From positions 2,604,001 through 2,668,000 of the forward strand of contig NZ_AP014936.1 in NCBI RefSeq assembly GCF_002355415.1: a stretch of 64,000 nt of DNA, written 5' to 3'. The translations under genes were made by a program, and so were the position numbers. The notes beneath the pieces are model-generated. The model was not told the DNA's origin. It ran no database searches and was given only the letters and a program-made list of their open reading frames with translations. Below are positions 42,519-61,863 of the stretch, one piece after another; positions within the stretch are counted from its first letter, which is position 1, and each line of letters starts with the position of its first letter. This DNA comes from Sulfurifustis variabilis. GTDB lineage: Bacteria; Pseudomonadota; Gammaproteobacteria; Acidiferrobacterales; Sulfurifustaceae.

Positions 42519-43079
42519 TCACAGCATGTCCGGGAGGAACTGCTTGCGCCGGCTGATAATCTTGCCGGACACCATGAACACCCCGTCGCCCGTGTAGTGC
42601 AGGGTCTGCGGATACTTCGGCGATACCGCGGCCTGCGCCTGCACCACTTCCCAGATGAAGAAGTTGTACTTGCGGACCAGGCTGTCGTCGACGAGCTGGC
42701 ATTCGAAGTGCGCGTAGCACTCGCGGATCAGCGGCGCCCCCACCTCTCTCGCCTTCTCGGCCGTCAGTCCGAAACGGTCGAACTTGTCGATCTCGGCGCC
42801 GCTCGTGTTGCCGATGCCGACCACCTCGTCGGTGAGCGCCGTCGTGGGCACATTGATGACGCATTCGCCGCTGCGGCGGACCATGTCGAAGCTGTGATTG
42901 CTGCCCGCGATCACGCAGCCGATCAGGGAGGGCGAGAACTCCATCACCGTGTGCCAGCCCATGGTCATGATATTGTGGCGGCCGTTCAGGGCCGACGAGA
43001 CGAGGACAATGGGCCCCGGTTCGAGGTAGCGGCGCACCTTGTCGAGCGGGAGGCTCTTCTTCTGGAAATGTCTTTTCAT
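42519..43079 (-). CDS. Flavin reductase-like FMN-binding protein
   Basis: 186 residues from ATG 43079 (MKRHFQKKSLPLDKVRRYLE). The split-barrel flavin reductase domain is complete: PIVLVSSALNGRHNIMTMGW near the start, FSPSLIGCVIAGSNHSFDMV, GECVINVPTTALTDEVVGIG, and the end DGVFMVSGKIISRRKQFLP. It binds FMN and is likely an NAD(P)H:flavin or ferric-type reductase. An isolated gene; copy 1 of a repeated 20-base motif lies 55 bp upstream of its start, on the opposite strand. Confidence 0.9.
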   Translation of the reverse strand: MKRHFQKKSLPLDKVRRYLEPGPIVLVSSALNGRHNIMTMGWHTVMEFSPSLIGCVIAGSNHSFDMVRRSGECVINVPTTALTDEVVGIGNTSGAEIDKFDRFGLTAEKAREVGAPLIRECYAHFECQLVDDSLVRKYNFFIWEVVQAQAAVSPKYPQTLHYTGDGVFMVSGKIISRRKQFLPDML

Positions 43080-43134
43080 CCGTTTGACCCTTGCCGATCC
43101 GGCGACCGTGACGATCGTATCGCGGAGAGCGCAG

Positions 43135-43178
43135 GTAACTCCATCGGAGTCCGGACGGGCCAAGCCCCCGAGCCGAGT
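43135..43178 (+). repeat. Repeated motif, copy 1 (possible structured RNA element)
   Basis: AGGTAACTCCATCGGAGTCC followed by GGACGGGCCAAGCCCC. ACTCC-ATC-GGAGT forms a small hairpin. Nearly the same string occurs at 45037-45071, also on the + strand. Here the downstream hairpin (AGCCC...GGGCT) is weak. No + strand gene follows; both copies lie between minus-strand genes. Confidence 0.5.
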
Positions 43179-43291
43179 GCTTTTCGGGCTCCAGGCGTGT
43201 TCAGCGCCGCATTTCATCCTCGGCGCTCGCCGTGGAATGCGACCCCCGGGACCACGCTGCGGCCGCCGGGGGTCTTTCCAAGCGGAAACGA

Positions 43292-43660
43292 TCAGCCGCT
43301 CGAGTACAGCGGATCCGGCGAGACGTAGACCTTGATATCCCGGCCATCGAGGGTGCCGGCCGGCGCGATCTCCTTGAGGTCGAACACGCGGCCGGTGCCG
43401 TAGGTGTCGAAGAGCCACTCGAAGGCGTTGCCGCCGACGGTGAACCGGACGATCTCGCCGCCCTCCACGTTGACGTGCTTCGTGTCGGCGCCGATCGCAA
43501 TGGTGCGATCGGCGCCGCGCGCCTGCGGACGGGCGTCCGGTATACCGTCGTGCACCGGCGTGCCGAGGTCCGATATCGCCCGGGACGGCATGGCGAACGA
43601 GGGCGCCGAGACAACACCGGCGACGAGAAGGGAAACGATGGGGAAACGCAGCCTGCTCAT
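43292..43660 (-). CDS. CzcE-like exported copper/heavy-metal protein
   Basis: 122 residues from ATG 43660. Signal peptide to about residue 23 (LLVAGVVSAPSFA). The mature domain matches the CzcE family: SDLGTPVHDG, then ADRTIAIGADTKHVNVEGGE and IVRFTVGGNAFEWLFDTYG. CzcE binds copper in the periplasm and occurs with czc resistance genes; none of those are here. Single gene with a 226-bp upstream gap before the HAD gene. Confidence 0.82.
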   Translation of the reverse strand: MSRLRFPIVSLLVAGVVSAPSFAMPSRAISDLGTPVHDGIPDARPQARGADRTIAIGADTKHVNVEGGEIVRFTVGGNAFEWLFDTYGTGRVFDLKEIAPAGTLDGRDIKVYVSPDPLYSSG

Positions 43661-43886
43661 GACTATCTCCTGAGTGAATGAAAGTCTGACCCGTCGGGTC
43701 TCTCCGATGGCATCGGCCCGGCGCCGTCCCGCACGATCCGATCCGTCCGGGCGCGGTCGCACTCGCCGCGAGGACCCCGGCCGCGGATTTCCTTCCCCCG
43801 CGCCGGCATCGCGTCGCCGAGCCATCGTTACAGGAGTAGATCGTTGCGGGCGACGATCTATTACCGACTGCCGTCGATCGGCATCG

Positions 43887-44651
43887 CTACGCCGCGGCGA
43901 CGCGCACGAGATCGGCGAGGGTGGTACCGGTCGCATCGGGCGCGAACCCCAGCTCCTCGCGCGGCAGGCCGAGACGGTTGACCCAGAACGTCGGATACCC
44001 GAACGCCTTCGCTCCGGCGGCATCCCAGCCGGCGAACGCGACGAACAGGATTTCGCGTTTATCCAGGCCGAAGGTCTCCGTCGCCAGCCGATAGGCGCGG
44101 GGGTCGGGCTTGTAGGTCCGGATCCGGTCGGTGCTGAGCACGTGATCGAACAAGCCCTCGAGGCCGGCGGTCCTGATACCGCTCTCCAGCATCGCCGCCG
44201 TCATGTTAGAGAGAAACGCCAGCTTGAACCCGCTTCGCTTGAGCGCCGCGAGCGCTCCTGGTGCGTCCGGCCAGGCCTTGAGCTCCAGGTAGGCCTGCAT
44301 CAGCGACCCACGCTTGTCCGCCGTCAGGTCGAGCTTCAACAGCTTCGTCGCGTACACGAGCGCGTCTTCGGTCGCCTCCCGGAAATCGGCGTACTGCCCC
44401 GACAGCGCCCGCAGCCACTGGTACTCGAACTGCCGCGTGCGCCAGGCGTTGCCGAGCTCGGCGCCGCGACCGGGAAACAGTCGCTCCGCCAGGGCGAAGA
44501 CCGGCCGCGGATCGAACACCGGAAACGCGTCGAACGCGATCGCTCTGATGCCCGACCGCGGGGCGGCGGTGGCCCGAGAGATCGGCCCCAGGACGCCGGC
44601 GGCGGCGCCCGCCGCAAGCAGGCCCAGGAACGTACGACGATCGTGTGGCAT
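43887..44651 (-). CDS. Tat-exported HAD (haloacid dehalogenase type II-like) protein
   Basis: 254 residues from ATG 44651. The N-terminus HDRRTFLGLLAAGAAAG has the twin-arginine motif, so export in folded form is expected. The HAD type II core has nucleophile motif IAFDAFPVFDP, motif II LAFLSNMTAAML (Ser/Asn), Lys in IRTYKPDPRAYRLA and motif IV FVAFAGWDAAGAKA. 2-haloacid dehalogenases are normally cytoplasmic; the Tat signal is the odd point. Substrate unproven. Confidence 0.85.
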   Translation of the reverse strand: MPHDRRTFLGLLAAGAAAGVLGPISRATAAPRSGIRAIAFDAFPVFDPRPVFALAERLFPGRGAELGNAWRTRQFEYQWLRALSGQYADFREATEDALVYATKLLKLDLTADKRGSLMQAYLELKAWPDAPGALAALKRSGFKLAFLSNMTAAMLESGIRTAGLEGLFDHVLSTDRIRTYKPDPRAYRLATETFGLDKREILFVAFAGWDAAGAKAFGYPTFWVNRLGLPREELGFAPDATGTTLADLVRVAAA

Positions 44652-45036
44652 GGCGCGCTCTCCTGTCCGGTGATGTTCGGGAAGGCACGCGCCGAAAAAC
44701 GCTCGCGGACCTTCAACCGATACTACCGGGCGGCGCCCGCCGCTATTTCCAGGACAGGAGCAAAAAATTCGGTAATAAATCGCCGCGCACCCGGGTCTAC
44801 GGAGCACGCACGGCGGATTGCTTACTGGTGAACACGGTCGACGAGAATCGACAAGTCCGGCGCGGGATTTGGCCATCCGGACGGCGGCGGCCCTTGCGCT
44901 GTGGAATTTTTTTTCGCCCCGCGAACTCCCGAAACTCGGGTCAGTCACAGTAAGTAGCCGGACCTCGATCCGAACCACAGTCCTAACCGACAGTGGCCTC
45001 ATCGAGATACCCCGCGAAGGGGAAAGGCTGTTTTGG

Positions 45037-45060
45037 AGGTAACTCCATCAGAGTCCGGTC
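45037..45060 (+). repeat. Repeated motif, copy 2
   Basis: AGGTAACTCCATCAGAGTCC, then GGTC, directly before the terminator stem. Differs from copy 1 (43135) at one of the first 20 bases; the change (G to A) weakens one base pair of the small ACTCC/GGAGT hairpin. Preceded by a second small hairpin (CCCCGCGAAGGGG near 45010-45022). Confidence 0.5.
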
Positions 45061-45094
45061 GGCTCAGCCCCGAAAGGGGCTGAGTCCTTTTTTT
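45061..45094 (+). terminator. Strong rho-independent terminator with no upstream gene
   Basis: Stem CTCAGCCCC / GGGGCTGAG (9 bp, GAAA tetraloop), extended outward by GG/CC, then seven T at 45088-45094. The orientation is +, yet no + strand coding sequence precedes it within several kilobases. It therefore suggests a non-coding transcript ending here. Confidence 0.8.
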
Positions 45095-45164
45095 GCCCGG
45101 AAAACCTCGAGAGTAGACTGCCGGACCCTCCGTACTCGGAGAACCTCGCGGGCCGTTCAAAAAG

Positions 45165-45555
45165 CTAGCGAACCAGATCGCGCCGATTTTTCTTCAGCCA
45201 TCCCGAGACTTCCCGCAGCAACTGCTCCGCCTCACGGATGCAGCTTTCGGCGGAGATGTCGTCGACGTCCTCCCCGGTTGTAGTCCGACAGGTTTCGCTT
45301 GCGTCTCAACGTGTCCGGCACTGCCAGGCGGTCACCGGACAACCCGATCGTCGTTGGCAATGCCTGCACTAAGGTCATGTGACGCCCCGGCCGGTTGGTG
45401 TCGGGCCGAAAGCCATTGGCCATCAGGGCCACGACGGCGGTTTGCATGATCGCCTTGTAAGCGACATCGAAACGGGATTCGGCGCTGACCTGCTTTACGC
45501 GAGAGTCGGCCAGGTTCCGTCGGGCCGCGTCCAGCAGCGTCCCTACTTCGTCGCG
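45165..45555 (-). pseudogene. HEPN-domain gene, frameshifted
   Basis: Partner of the nucleotidyltransferase in a minimal-nucleotidyltransferase/HEPN (MNT) toxin-antitoxin arrangement. The frame from 45555 reads DEVGTLLDAARRNLADSRVK, then AYKAIMQTAVVALMANGFRP, the HEPN helical core. At YN near 45278 an extra base shifts it. The adjacent frame then continues TGEDVDDISAESCIREAEQL to LKKNRRDLVR and a TAG at 45165. No ATG precedes the domain in frame (first ATG 45447), and a TGA closes it upstream. So at least one insertion and the start are defective. Confidence 0.75.
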
Positions 45556-45559
45556 TCAG

Positions 45560-46135
45560 TGATTTATCTGCCCGATCTTTAACAAGTTCTCCAAGGTCAT
45601 CCGCTGTCCCTATCAAGAATAGTTTCGGTTCCCTGATAACCCGTGCGACGAATCGATCGCCTTCTTTCTGCTTCCTCAGAAAATCACTTCTTGGCATCAC
45701 CACCGGATTGATCTCCCGGCCCAGACGCTCGTGCGTCGGTGCAACCGCCTTGACGACGTAGGTGAACGATACGGACCCGACGACAAACACATCCACGTCG
45801 CTCGTTACCCGCTCCTTGCCTTGGGCGACCGAGCCAAAAACGAACGCAAGATCGATCTCGGAGGCCAAGGGTGTCAACGCCTCGCGCAAGACGTCGGCGA
45901 GACCGACGGTTTTTCGCGCAATGCCGCAAAGCTCCCGGAAGAGCGGCGACTTGGGATTTGCCTGATAGTGTTTTTCTGGGCTCCAACGCGGGTGACGGTC
46001 CAGTCCGCTGTCGACGAGCCGTGCCAGCTCGCGCTGGACGGCACCCGATCCGCCGCCGGCGAGCCTGATCACCTCCGTAGCGAAAAAACTCCGTTCCGGC
46101 TGACCGAACAAATACCCCAGCACTCGCTGTTGCAC
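45560..46135 (-). pseudogene. wHTH-nucleotidyltransferase (MNT) gene, decayed
   Basis: The frame from GTG 46135 gives QQRVLGYLFGQPERSFFATE (winged helix) and then DLAFVFGSVAQGKERVTSDV with the NTase GS-x10-D-x-D motif, ending about GTADDLGELVKDRADKS. Signs of decay: (i) at 45970-46001 the expected VTRVGAQKHYQ reads in another frame, so two indels that cancel replaced it by DRHPRWSPEKHYQ; (ii) the family start falls on a CTG upstream; (iii) its own stop is lost, so the frame runs into the HEPN gene to 45332. The core catalytic motif is intact, so residual activity is not excluded. Confidence 0.7.
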
Positions 46136-55962: not shown

Positions 55963-57852
55963 TTAACCCGCTTTCGCTGTCTTCTCTTTGTCGTCCACCA
56001 GGTGATAAAGCGGCGCCTTCTCCATCGTGTACTGGCCGGTCTTGCGGTCGCGGCGAGAAACAGTCAGGCAGTGCCAGTTCTTATCATCCAGCTTCATGAA
56101 GTCGCCGCGGTAGTAGTAACCCGGCCAGCGAGTCTCTTCACGGAACAGCGTATGCTGGAACACGCACTCGGACGTGCGAATGCGGTGGTACAGCTCCCAT
56201 GCACGCAACAGCTCGTGAATGTCGGCTGCGCCCATGCCGTTATGCCAGTCTTCCTCGAGCCATTTCAGCTTCTTCAGGCCGATCTTGAGGAGATTGCCGT
56301 TGGTCATGTAGTTCACGCCGAAACCACCGCAGTACTCGTCCATCAGCTTCTGCAGGCGATCCAGGCCCTGCCGCGGGTTGATGAAGTTCGGGTTCACGGT
56401 CCCGGCGACCACTTCGTTGCTGTACACCCGGTAGGTCTCGAGCGGCTTGTAGATCTTCTCCCGCAGCTCCTCGATCTGCCTGTCCGAGACGCGAATGCCC
56501 TCGGCCTTGCCGTCGTCGATGTACTTGCAGGCGGCCTTGGCGGCCAGACGACCCTCGGTGAAGGACCCGGACGAGAACGCGTGCGGCGTGCCGCCGATCG
56601 CGTCACCCGCGCCGAACAGGCCTTCGACGGTCATCATGCGGTTGTAGCCCCAGAAGTACTCCGGCGGCGACACGTCTTCCGGACCGGAGGCCCAGCCGCC
56701 GCAACCGGTGGCGTGCGAGCCCATGACGTACGGCTCGGAGGTCGTCAGCTCGGGGTTTTCGTACTTCGGATCCACGTTGGTCGCCGCCCACAGCACCGCC
56801 TGGCCCACGGTCATGCCCAGGAAGTTGTGCCAGCCGATCTCCTCCAGATGCGGATCCTGGAAGGCTTCCATGGTCACCATGTGGATCGGACCGCGGCCGG
56901 CGTTGACCTCGCTGATCAGCGCGTGGTTGCGCAGGCAGGTCGGGATCGGCCGATGCGTCAGGTGCGACGCCTCCGGATCGAGGTATTCCTTGCCGACCAT
57001 TTCCTGGAGCTGCGGCCACCACTTCTCTTCGTACTTCTCGCCCAGGCCGTTCTGGGTATAGGTCTTCAGGTGCAGGAAGTAGGCGCCCACCGGACCGTAG
57101 CCGTCCTTGAAGCGGGCCAGCACGATGCGGTTCTCCATCTGGGTCATCTTCGCGCCGGCATCGATCATGAGGCCGTACGCCGAGCCCGAGGACCACGGCG
57201 CGTACCACACGCGACCGGCGCCTTCACCCACGGAGCGCGGCTTGAAGATGTTGGAGGCGCCACCGGCACCGACGATCACGGTCTTGGACTTGAACACGTG
57301 ATAGTTGCCGGTACGCACGTTGAAGCCCACGGCGCCGGCGATGCGGTTTTCCTTGGCCTCGTCCAGCAGCAGGTGCGTCACGCAGATGCGGTTGTACACC
57401 TTGTCGGCGGACCGCTTCGCGGCCTCGGCGACGATCGGCTTGTAGGACTCGCCGTGGATCATGATCTGCCAGCGGCCTTCGCGCTGATAGCTGCCTTTCT
57501 TCTTGTTGCGCATGATCGGCAGACCCCATTCCTCGAACTGATGAACGGCGGAGTCCACGTGGCGCGCCATGTCGAACGCCAGATCCTCGCGCACCATCCC
57601 CATCAGGTCGATGCGCGCGTAACGGACGTGATCCTCGGGGTTGTTCTCGCCGAAGCGGGCGCCCATGTAGCAGTTGATCGCGTACAGGCCCTGGGCCACC
57701 GCACCGGAACGGTCGATATTGGCCTTCTCGGCGATGACGATCTTCTTGTCCCGGCCCCAGTAGCGCGCTTCGAACGCGGCACCGGTGCCGCCGAGGCCCG
57801 CGCCGACGACGAGGACGTCGATGTTGTCTTCAACGATTGTCTTGTAGCCCAT
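55963..57852 (-). CDS. aprA: Adenylylsulfate reductase alpha subunit
   Basis: 629 residues from ATG 57852, the codon overlapping the aprB stop (TAATG). FAD-binding flavoprotein of the APS reductase: VLVVGAGLGGTGAAFEARYW (residues 13-32), QGLYAINCYMGARFGENNPE, GAGGASNIFKPRSVGEGAGR, and FGAGDAIGGTPHAFSSGSFT. The active-site residues expected from the structural family lie in VNAGRGPIHMVTMEAF and WWPQLQEMVGKEYLDPE. In sulfur oxidisers it works in reverse, making APS from sulfite and AMP. Length (629) fits the family. Operon aprM-aprB-aprA. Confidence 0.97.
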   Translation of the reverse strand: MGYKTIVEDNIDVLVVGAGLGGTGAAFEARYWGRDKKIVIAEKANIDRSGAVAQGLYAINCYMGARFGENNPEDHVRYARIDLMGMVREDLAFDMARHVDSAVHQFEEWGLPIMRNKKKGSYQREGRWQIMIHGESYKPIVAEAAKRSADKVYNRICVTHLLLDEAKENRIAGAVGFNVRTGNYHVFKSKTVIVGAGGASNIFKPRSVGEGAGRVWYAPWSSGSAYGLMIDAGAKMTQMENRIVLARFKDGYGPVGAYFLHLKTYTQNGLGEKYEEKWWPQLQEMVGKEYLDPEASHLTHRPIPTCLRNHALISEVNAGRGPIHMVTMEAFQDPHLEEIGWHNFLGMTVGQAVLWAATNVDPKYENPELTTSEPYVMGSHATGCGGWASGPEDVSPPEYFWGYNRMMTVEGLFGAGDAIGGTPHAFSSGSFTEGRLAAKAACKYIDDGKAEGIRVSDRQIEELREKIYKPLETYRVYSNEVVAGTVNPNFINPRQGLDRLQKLMDEYCGGFGVNYMTNGNLLKIGLKKLKWLEEDWHNGMGAADIHELLRAWELYHRIRTSECVFQHTLFREETRWPGYYYRGDFMKLDDKNWHCLTVSRRDRKTGQYTMEKAPLYHLVDDKEKTAKAG

Positions 57853-58334
57853 TAGTAGTACACCCCTGCTTTGAGTGAGAGCCCGGCGGACTTCAGCGTC
57901 CGGATGTCCCCGTCGTCCATGCGGATGTACTTGGGCTCCTTATATAAGAGTTGGCTCGCGCGCATTTCCTTGCTGGGCGCGGGCTCCGCCTTCAGATCCG
58001 GGAACCCGGTGCCCCACGGCTTGGTCGTGATCGGCGCCACGAGGTCCATGTCCTTCTTGCCGTTGCGGAACTTGATGCGCCACGAAATGATGCCTTTCTC
58101 TTCGTCGCGGTGCACGCGCACCGAGTGACCCAGCGGCGCGAAGTCCGCGTAGCCGCGAACGTCGATCGCGTGGTGCGGGCAGGCCTTCACGCAGGAATAG
58201 CACTCCCAGCACATGTTGGGCTCGATGTTGTAGGCACGCCGAAGCGACTTGTCGATGTGCATGATGTCCGACGGGCAGATGTCGACGCACTGTCCGCACC
58301 CGTCACAACGCGTCATGTATACGAATGTTGGCAT
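57852..58334 (-). CDS. aprB: Adenylylsulfate reductase beta subunit
   Basis: 160 residues from ATG 58334. Ferredoxin-like domain with two [4Fe-4S] clusters: CDGCGQCVDICPSDIM (residues 10-25) and CWECYSCVKACPHHAI (42-57). The C-terminal half (GYADFAPLGHSVRVHRDEEK, RGNG-like FRNGKKDMDLVAPITTKPWG) wraps the alpha subunit. It shuttles electrons between AprA FAD and the membrane (AprM or QmoABC). Stop overlaps the aprA start; 36 bp after aprM. Confidence 0.97.
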   Translation of the reverse strand: MPTFVYMTRCDGCGQCVDICPSDIMHIDKSLRRAYNIEPNMCWECYSCVKACPHHAIDVRGYADFAPLGHSVRVHRDEEKGIISWRIKFRNGKKDMDLVAPITTKPWGTGFPDLKAEPAPSKEMRASQLLYKEPKYIRMDDGDIRTLKSAGLSLKAGVYY

Positions 58335-58370
58335 GATCTTCTCTCTCGTATAGCGATAGTTGAAGAATCG

Positions 58371-59222
58371 TTAGTAGTGGCTCGGCCGCTCGCGGCGGAT
58401 ACCCGGCCCCATGTTGGGCGGGTTCTTGCCCATGTACTCGGCAAGATCCGGAAACTTTCTCTGCACCTCGGGATCGCGCGGATCGTAGTCGAAGGGCAGG
58501 TCTTCTCTCGAGCCGTCGGCGCGGGTGACGCGCTTTTGAAAGGCGGCCGCGGGCTTGAAGAACATGTGCGCGAACTTGGACCAATACACGCCGCCGAACA
58601 ACACGACGCCGGAGAGGGCGAACAGAACCAGGAACAGCGTCGACCAGCCGCTGATGCCGCGGTACTGCGTGAACGACCAGAGCAACGCGAAGGTCGCCGT
58701 CGCGAGCAGCGAGAGGATGAAGAGATCCGCGCGCTCCAGACGCCACCAGGTGAGGCCTTCCGCCGAGACGTCGACCCGGATGAAGAACCAGAACCAGTAT
58801 CCGCCGACGGCGAGCATCAGCGCGCCGATGTGCCAGAGCTGCGGCAGGATGGCCGGCGCCGGCGTCTCCGGGGTGGGATAACCGAAGATCAGGATCGCGG
58901 TGGTCGCGACGAAAATGATGGTGCCCCACATGGTCAGCAGATGGGAAAGTCTGCGCCGGGGATTGCAGAATTCACCGGAAGTCGCCACTTCGTTCAACAG
59001 AACGGACGCGGCGATGACCGCTTTCTCTCCGACTCCGACTTGACGCTTTGCGTTCTTCTTTTCTTTCTCCGCATTCAGGAAAAAGTACTTCGCGCTCTTC
59101 TTGTGCATCATGTCGAGTATGGTCCCCACGATCACCAGCAGGACCATTAGAATGATGTACCCTTGCATGACGGCAACGGGTATGTTGGCCGAAAGCTCGG
59201 CGAAGGGATTGCTCGTGAACAT
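58371..59222 (-). CDS. aprM: AprM membrane anchor of APS reductase
   Basis: 283 residues from ATG 59222. About six membrane helices (near 15-35, 95-115, 125-150, 165-185, 195-220); sequence PVAVMQGYIILMVLLVIVGT and LWHIGALMLAVGGYWFWFFI. Ends in a soluble Pro-rich tail (GPGIRRERPSHY). Membrane protein AprM replaces Qmo as the quinone-side partner in sulfur-oxidising bacteria; no qmo genes are seen. First gene of the operon, 363 bp of leader upstream. Confidence 0.9.
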   Translation of the reverse strand: MFTSNPFAELSANIPVAVMQGYIILMVLLVIVGTILDMMHKKSAKYFFLNAEKEKKNAKRQVGVGEKAVIAASVLLNEVATSGEFCNPRRRLSHLLTMWGTIIFVATTAILIFGYPTPETPAPAILPQLWHIGALMLAVGGYWFWFFIRVDVSAEGLTWWRLERADLFILSLLATATFALLWSFTQYRGISGWSTLFLVLFALSGVVLFGGVYWSKFAHMFFKPAAAFQKRVTRADGSREDLPFDYDPRDPEVQRKFPDLAEYMGKNPPNMGPGIRRERPSHY

Positions 59223-60739: not shown

Positions 60740-61561
60740 TCAAGCAGACACTCCAGAAGTAGAACTTCGCCGTTCCAACACCTGTTGCCGGTACATCATC
60801 GGCGGTATGCGGTTCAACGACCGGTGCGGTCGCTCCGCGTTGTAACTGCACAGCCACCACCACACCATCTCCCGCACCTGGTCGAGATCCTCGAACAGGT
60901 AGGCATCGAGCAGCTCGTGACGCAGGCTGCGGTTGAAGCGTTCGACGAAGGCGTTCTGGTTCGGCTTGCCCGGCGCGATGTAGGCGAGCTCGATGCCGTG
61001 GCCGGCGCACCACTTAACGAGGCGCTGCGCGGTGAACTCTGGCCCGTTGTCGAGCCGCAGGCGCTTGGGCAGGCCGCGCCAGGCCTTGAGCTGCTCGAGC
61101 ACGCGGATAACCCGCTCGGCCGGGAGGTTGGTGTCCACCTCGATCGCCAGAGCCTCGCGGGCGCCTTCGTCCAGGATGTTGAGCAGGCGGAAGGTCCGCC
61201 CGCGGTAAAGGGCATCGCTCATGAAGTCGAGCGCCCAGACGGTGTTGATGGCCGATGGCGCCTGAAGCGGCAAGGAATCGCGTTTGGGAAGCCGCTTCTT
61301 GGTACGCCGGGGCAGGTTGAGCTTGAGCGCGCGGTAGACCCGCCACACCCGTTTGTGGTTCCAGGGGTGGTTCTGCACCCGCTTCAGATGGTCAAAACAC
61401 ATCCAGAACCCCCAGCGGTGATGCCGTTCGACCACACCGCTCAGTGCCGCGATGACCTCGCGGTCGCGCTCGGCGGCGGGCACGGGCACCCGGTAATAGG
61501 CCGCCCGGGAGAGCCCGACCGCCGTACAGGCCCGTCGCACCGCTAACCCGTGTTGTCCCAC
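60740..61561 (-). CDS. IS3-family transposase OrfB (DDE integrase domain)
   Basis: 273 residues if read from the GTG at 61561; in life probably made as an OrfAB fusion by -1 frameshifting. DDE core: first Asp in TVWALDFMSDALYRGRTFRL, second in RLRLDNGPEFTAQRLVKWCA, Glu in NQNAFVERFNRSLRHELLDA. The HTH_21 region (HRWGFWMCFDHLKRV) precedes it. The C-terminal NAERPHRSLNRIPPMMYRQQ block is characteristic of IS3/IS407 relatives. It looks intact, so the element may be active. Confidence 0.93.
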   Translation of the reverse strand: MGQHGLAVRRACTAVGLSRAAYYRVPVPAAERDREVIAALSGVVERHHRWGFWMCFDHLKRVQNHPWNHKRVWRVYRALKLNLPRRTKKRLPKRDSLPLQAPSAINTVWALDFMSDALYRGRTFRLLNILDEGAREALAIEVDTNLPAERVIRVLEQLKAWRGLPKRLRLDNGPEFTAQRLVKWCAGHGIELAYIAPGKPNQNAFVERFNRSLRHELLDAYLFEDLDQVREMVWWWLCSYNAERPHRSLNRIPPMMYRQQVLERRSSTSGVSA

Positions 61562-61596
61562 CAGGTAGGCCGCCGATTCGCGGCGCTCGGCGGGGC

Positions 61597-61863
61597 TCAG
61601 TGCTTTTTTTGGATGAGATCCTTAAGCGCGTGGTTCTCGAGCGAGAGCTCGGCGAACATGCGCTTCAACCGGGCGTTCTCCGTCTCGAGCTCCTTCATGC
61701 GCTTGAGCTCCGCGACGTCGAGGCCCCCGTACTTGGCCTTCCACTTGTAGTACGTCGCCGAGCTGATGCCGTGTCTTCGCCAGATCTCGTTCACCGGCAC
61801 GCCCGACTCCGCCTCCCTGAGGATCGCCACGATCTGGCTCTCCGTGAACCGCGATTTCTTCAT
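61597..61863 (-). CDS. IS3-family transposase OrfA
   Basis: 88 residues from ATG 61863: MKKSRFTESQIVAILREAES, then RRHGISSATYYKWKAKYGGL, a helix-turn-helix, followed by the leucine-zipper-like ELKRMKELETENARLKRMFA. Ends LIQKKH just after the slippery sequence A AAA AAG. Binds the terminal repeats as part of the OrfAB transposase. Confidence 0.93.
   Translation of the reverse strand: MKKSRFTESQIVAILREAESGVPVNEIWRRHGISSATYYKWKAKYGGLDVAELKRMKELETENARLKRMFAELSLENHALKDLIQKKH
61603..61609 (-). promoter_or_regulatory. Programmed -1 frameshift site A AAA AAG
   Basis: Read on the minus strand within ATC CAA AAA AAG CAC TGA. The -1 frame continues GCA CTG AGC CCC GCC GAG without a stop into orfB (ALSPAERRESAAYLVGQHG), so the fused OrfAB protein can be produced. 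Heptamer matches the canonical IS3-family signal. Confidence 0.88.

Follow-up and report, generated by a model that had tools for sequence, protein, structure and literature searches.

A short direct repeat and an intrinsic terminator in Sulfurifustis variabilis suggest a candidate small RNA gene

Results

The window, the whole 64-kb stretch of Sulfurifustis variabilis DNA analysed here, carries on its plus strand two copies of a 20-mer with one variable base, AGGTAACTCCATC[G/A]GAGTCC, which a pattern search places at 43133-43152 (copy 1, AGGTAACTCCATCGGAGTCC) and 45037-45056 (copy 2, AGGTAACTCCATCAGAGTCC), about 1.9 kb apart and in direct orientation. A preliminary description had already located the second copy correctly and had placed the first at 43135, two bases to the right of its actual start. 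Both copies are intergenic and, as also recognized then, flanked by minus-strand genes. Copy 1 is located upstream of a gene for a flavin reductase-like protein (42519-43079, minus strand; PF01613), at 53 bp from its start, and the next gene to the right of this copy encodes a CzcE-like protein (43292-43660, minus strand; PF16986); no plus-strand feature precedes the copy on the map. At copy 2, a gene for a haloacid dehalogenase (HAD)-like hydrolase (43887-44651, minus strand; PF00702), which has a possible TAT signal below the cut-off, begins 385 bp away, the copy being upstream of this gene and between it and an ORF with a nucleotidyltransferase domain (45332-46135, minus strand; PF18765/PF01909), all four assignments resting on Pfam matches. 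Broken reading frames occupy the minus strand between this ORF and copy 2 (45093-46135 region); read by eye, we take them to be a decayed HEPN partner, a piece of which had no match in Pfam. Further along the minus strand, three ORFs at 55963-59222 resemble an AprM-AprBA sulfur-oxidation cluster, and two adjacent ORFs at 60740-61863 suggest, on visual inspection, a transposase pair of the IS3 type. No tRNA or tmRNA was found in the window.

Neither of the two plus-strand ORFs through copy 2, including the one that runs through and past it (44993-45283), has a Pfam match above a curated cut-off, and the next clear genes are on the minus strand. The earlier statement that no plus-strand gene explains either copy holds for copy 2 in this sense, no plus-strand ORF there having a Pfam match above the cut-off. 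A scan for promoters of the sigma-70-like type gave 0 sites before either copy, and the best log-odds site of this type upstream was reached by 73 of 300 shuffles.

The motif is confined to these two places. Allowing up to three mismatches, AGGTAACTCCATCNGAGTCC has two sites in the 64-kb window against 0.00 from shuffles, and GGTAACTCCATCNGAGTCC has two matches in the whole genome (3,958,814 bp, one contig), which are copies 1 and 2; the reversed control pattern has none in the same 3,958,814 bp at the same stringency. The additional genomic copies that the preliminary description had proposed to align are therefore not found at up to three mismatches. With two genome copies only, an origin of the motif as the end of a transposon or repeat family is ruled out. 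A coding origin on either strand, for which the codons were read by hand, is not supported, the minus-strand differences falling at all three codon positions. The match to a coding sequence or transposon end that had been named as an argument against a small RNA has thus not appeared: the motif is accounted for neither by a protein family above the cut-off nor by a third copy in the genome.

The copies are alike over about 36 nt and, weakly, onward into the terminator described below, an extent that had escaped the preliminary description. BLAST aligns them at 86% identity over about 36 nt (E ~7e-4 for the genome), and a gapless alignment gives 83% over 35 nt. Aligned locally, the two gaps match best from AGG to CTTTT, with a score of 27, the maximum in 1000 shuffled pairs being 22. 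The copies differ at one base in the first 22 nt and at far more in the remainder, a small sample. Their 5' sides are not alike, the observed score being reached by 1565 of 2000 shuffles. For the tails beyond the 36-nt block, GCCGAGTGCTTTT and GCTGAGTCCTTTT, 43 of 3000 shuffles attain the score of a free local alignment and 310 of 3000 that of an anchored extension toward the 3' arm of the terminator; by sequence comparison, the similarity may weakly run past about 36 nt into the terminator arm.

Copy 2 runs straight into an intrinsic terminator with seven T (45061-45094, plus strand), just as the preliminary description had stated. Sequence, pattern scan and fold agree on a perfect, GC-rich hairpin with an 11-bp stem, a GNRA loop (GAAA) and the tail TTTTTTT, oriented along the plus strand while the neighbouring genes are on the minus strand. 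The terminator match as such is not special, because shuffles lead one to expect 2.6 terminator-like sites in the 3.1-kb region and the pattern scan found two; the 18-nt core of the copy 2 terminator occurs once in the window, with 0.07 expected. On the strand of the candidate small RNA (sRNA), a Rho-independent terminator is present at copy 2 and absent at copy 1, where alignment and folding identify a counterpart (43153-43184, plus strand) whose hairpin is not preserved.

Upstream of the terminator, folding of the single sequence predicts for copy 2 a branched RNA (44957-45059, plus strand), the candidate body of an sRNA. In this prediction, the closing helix GCCGGAC/GUCCGGU, to which the motif contributes GUCCGG, encloses a long arm, a CCCC/GGGG hairpin and a GUAA-capped UGGAG/CUCCA hairpin (45034-45047, plus strand); the CUCC stretch is paired, not exposed, in the favoured fold. 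With the terminator left out, 44950-45061 folds at -43.7 kcal/mol (z -3.48) and 44955-45060 reaches a z-score of -3.98, and in either case none of 200 shuffles is as stable. The z-score hinges on boundaries that were picked after seeing the fold, because the slightly longer 44930-45061 gives only -1.82. Among 639 control segments of 112 nt tiled over the plus strand, 4 reach a z-score of -3.5; the segment at 44950 has -3.57 and is favoured in this comparison by the same choice of boundaries. The lowest values of the tiled segments lie around 51901 (-5.02) and 39001 (-4.88). The minus strand of the same copy 2 bases folds too, with a z-score of -2.35 when the terminator is left out and of -4.73 when it is included.

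Copy 1 keeps the motif and has neither terminator nor closing helix, and over four stretches its z-scores range from -0.41 to 0.26, no better than shuffles. The preliminary description had assigned an ACTCC/GGAGT-like hairpin to each copy. Such a hairpin is indeed intact in copy 1, with 5 bp and a 3-nt loop, and only there: a G-to-A change in copy 2 breaks it, leaving ACTC/GAGT, and the hairpin favoured instead, UGGAG-GUAA-CUCCA, has a 5' arm lying partly outside the motif. No one hairpin is common to both copies, and this speaks against conservation of an RNA structure in copy 1.

Rfam covariance models, the check suggested at the outset, returned no family: there were 0 matches in the 64 kb at the gathering score, and none of relevance in 42900-45300 when E values up to 5 were admitted, with one irrelevant match elsewhere. 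Across 57 genomes of the order, which include no other genome of the genus Sulfurifustis, the distance at which such an sRNA is ordinarily conserved, BLAST, a 143-position model (R1) and a 72-position model (R2) gave no convincing homologue. Covariance-model matches in six relatives (E 0.11-0.32) are about what chance would give and on inspection do not have core and terminator in common with the locus. In its own genome, R2 at E up to 10 finds both copies and one match at E 7.4, and over 369 genomes of the class it finds no convincing homologue; three other matches, at E 0.009-0.013, are near chance for so many searches and likewise do not share core and terminator on inspection. One class match (L080), judged by eye, we take to resemble a reversed sufB stretch. 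Pattern matches with two mismatches in three genomes (G001, G025 and G042) and an exact match in one Zixiibacteriota contig from a search of genome contigs share only the 19-mer, with no terminator or flank, and look by eye like coding sequence; the G001 match falls in the same place as one of the six weak matches. Viral contigs gave 0 hits to the exact pattern, and phages and plasmids gave no match. Relatives of the HAD-like protein are distant, the best being 34% identical over part of the protein. In the literature on Acidiferrobacterales and Sulfurifustis, searched for sRNA, RNA-seq and riboswitch, no sRNA study of the group was found.

Discussion

What kind of element could these two copies represent? 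The best explanation, which we hold tentatively and at a little short of even confidence, is that copy 2 is a lineage-specific, free-standing sRNA gene with its own terminator and copy 1 a decayed partial duplicate, with Hfq-type action in trans as the likeliest mode. The gene would lie somewhere within about 44950-45094 on the plus strand and measure some 60-145 nt; we infer transcription from a start site in this stretch, through the gene's own Rho-independent terminator, to an end near 45092. The 3' module, consisting of the GGAG-GUAA-CUCC hairpin, a linker and the terminator with its U-tail, would be the part common to both copies, and copy 1 would have arisen by partial duplication of this module, its terminator having since decayed. 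As Hfq is encoded in the genome (PF17209, 104.9 bits), trans pairing is possible: an Hfq-bound transcript would probably act by base pairing, its AACUCCAUC/GAGUCC stretch recognizing GGAG sequences of the Shine-Dalgarno type in putative targets. The original suggestion of two copies of a small RNA thus fits copy 2, with its orphan terminator, branched fold and lack of a Pfam-matched plus-strand ORF, and is weaker for copy 1, because this copy has no terminator and folds no better than shuffles.

Among known systems, copy 2 resembles intergenic Hfq-type sRNAs with Rho-independent terminators in its intergenic position, its own terminator and U-tail, its hairpin modules and the presence of hfq in the genome; unlike these, the locus has no Rfam match, and a sigma-70-like promoter was not found. 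A branched RNA directly before a terminator is also reminiscent of terminator-type riboswitch or attenuator leaders, but no gene can be recognized downstream on that strand, and Rfam gives no match. The presence of two related copies in direct orientation, with a spacing of 1.9 kb, recalls tandem duplicated sRNA paralogues, although here only the 3' module is common and copy 1 lacks a terminator.

The main rival is an orphan terminator with a relic duplicate, a reading that is possible but less probable than an sRNA gene. In it, a terminator and its flanks were copied once, both copies have been drifting since, and copy 2 is left over from a lost plus-strand gene, with no RNA function. The degraded, unstructured state of copy 1, the likely decayed gene adjoining copy 2 and the lack of homologues in the 57 order and 369 class genomes all agree with this. 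However, neutral drift poorly predicts the uneven similarity of the copies, with a single difference in the first 22 nt and more after in this small sample, and the terminator is preceded by roughly 107 nt with an unusual degree of structure. An unlikely variant on the RNA side would make 44957-45094 an undescribed structured RNA family restricted to Sulfurifustis. By the predicted fold, its branched body would use the motif kept in both copies for the closing helix and the GUAA-capped hairpin, and copy 1 would be a diverged paralogue that has evolved its own hairpin (ACTCC/GGAGT), perhaps along with a separate function.

Three further explanations are less likely. That the 20-mer is a DNA operator, bound by a regulator of the minus-strand genes, is suggested by its short, sharply conserved core, by the dyad ACTC-N5-GAGT and by the position of copy 1 upstream of the flavin reductase gene. 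Such an operator would nevertheless have two sites only in the genome, one of them 385 bp from the next minus-strand gene, and the similarity extends past the dyad. Moreover, of the 19 other genomes of the family, the three that have the flavin reductase (48-50% identical) carry no motif beside it, the nearest 14-of-20 matches being about 0.4 and 1 kb away, so that we regard this reading as quite unlikely. A MerR-type operator was considered too and set aside, the dyad being too short for it. More improbable still is a leader or riboswitch-like attenuator of a lost plus-strand gene, in which a branched sensing domain would precede the terminator. The helix-closed fold directly before the terminator would suit it, as would the fact that no downstream plus-strand gene passes the Pfam cut-off, but Rfam offers no relevant match up to E 5 in 42900-45300, no relative retains a downstream gene, and copy 1 has no closing helix. 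Least probable of all is that a 1.9-kb mobile segment (43133-45092) inserted into the 3' end of an RNA gene and left the copies behind as direct repeats. Their direct orientation and the position of the common block at a gene-end-like terminator are in line with such an event; against it, the two proteins encoded between the copies are CzcE- and HAD-like by their matches, the next protein matches flavin reductase, and neither an integrase nor a transposase occurs among them; the copies are 83-86% identical; and the simplest such event would place the longer structured 5' part at the other copy.

The repeat and the terminator sequence are real, and the sRNA candidate is a modest one, of a known kind. 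If copy 2 is transcribed, this chemolithoautotrophic, gammaproteobacterial sulfur oxidizer would have a candidate sRNA; if it is not transcribed as an sRNA, the locus would amount to a common orphan terminator accompanied by a relic copy.
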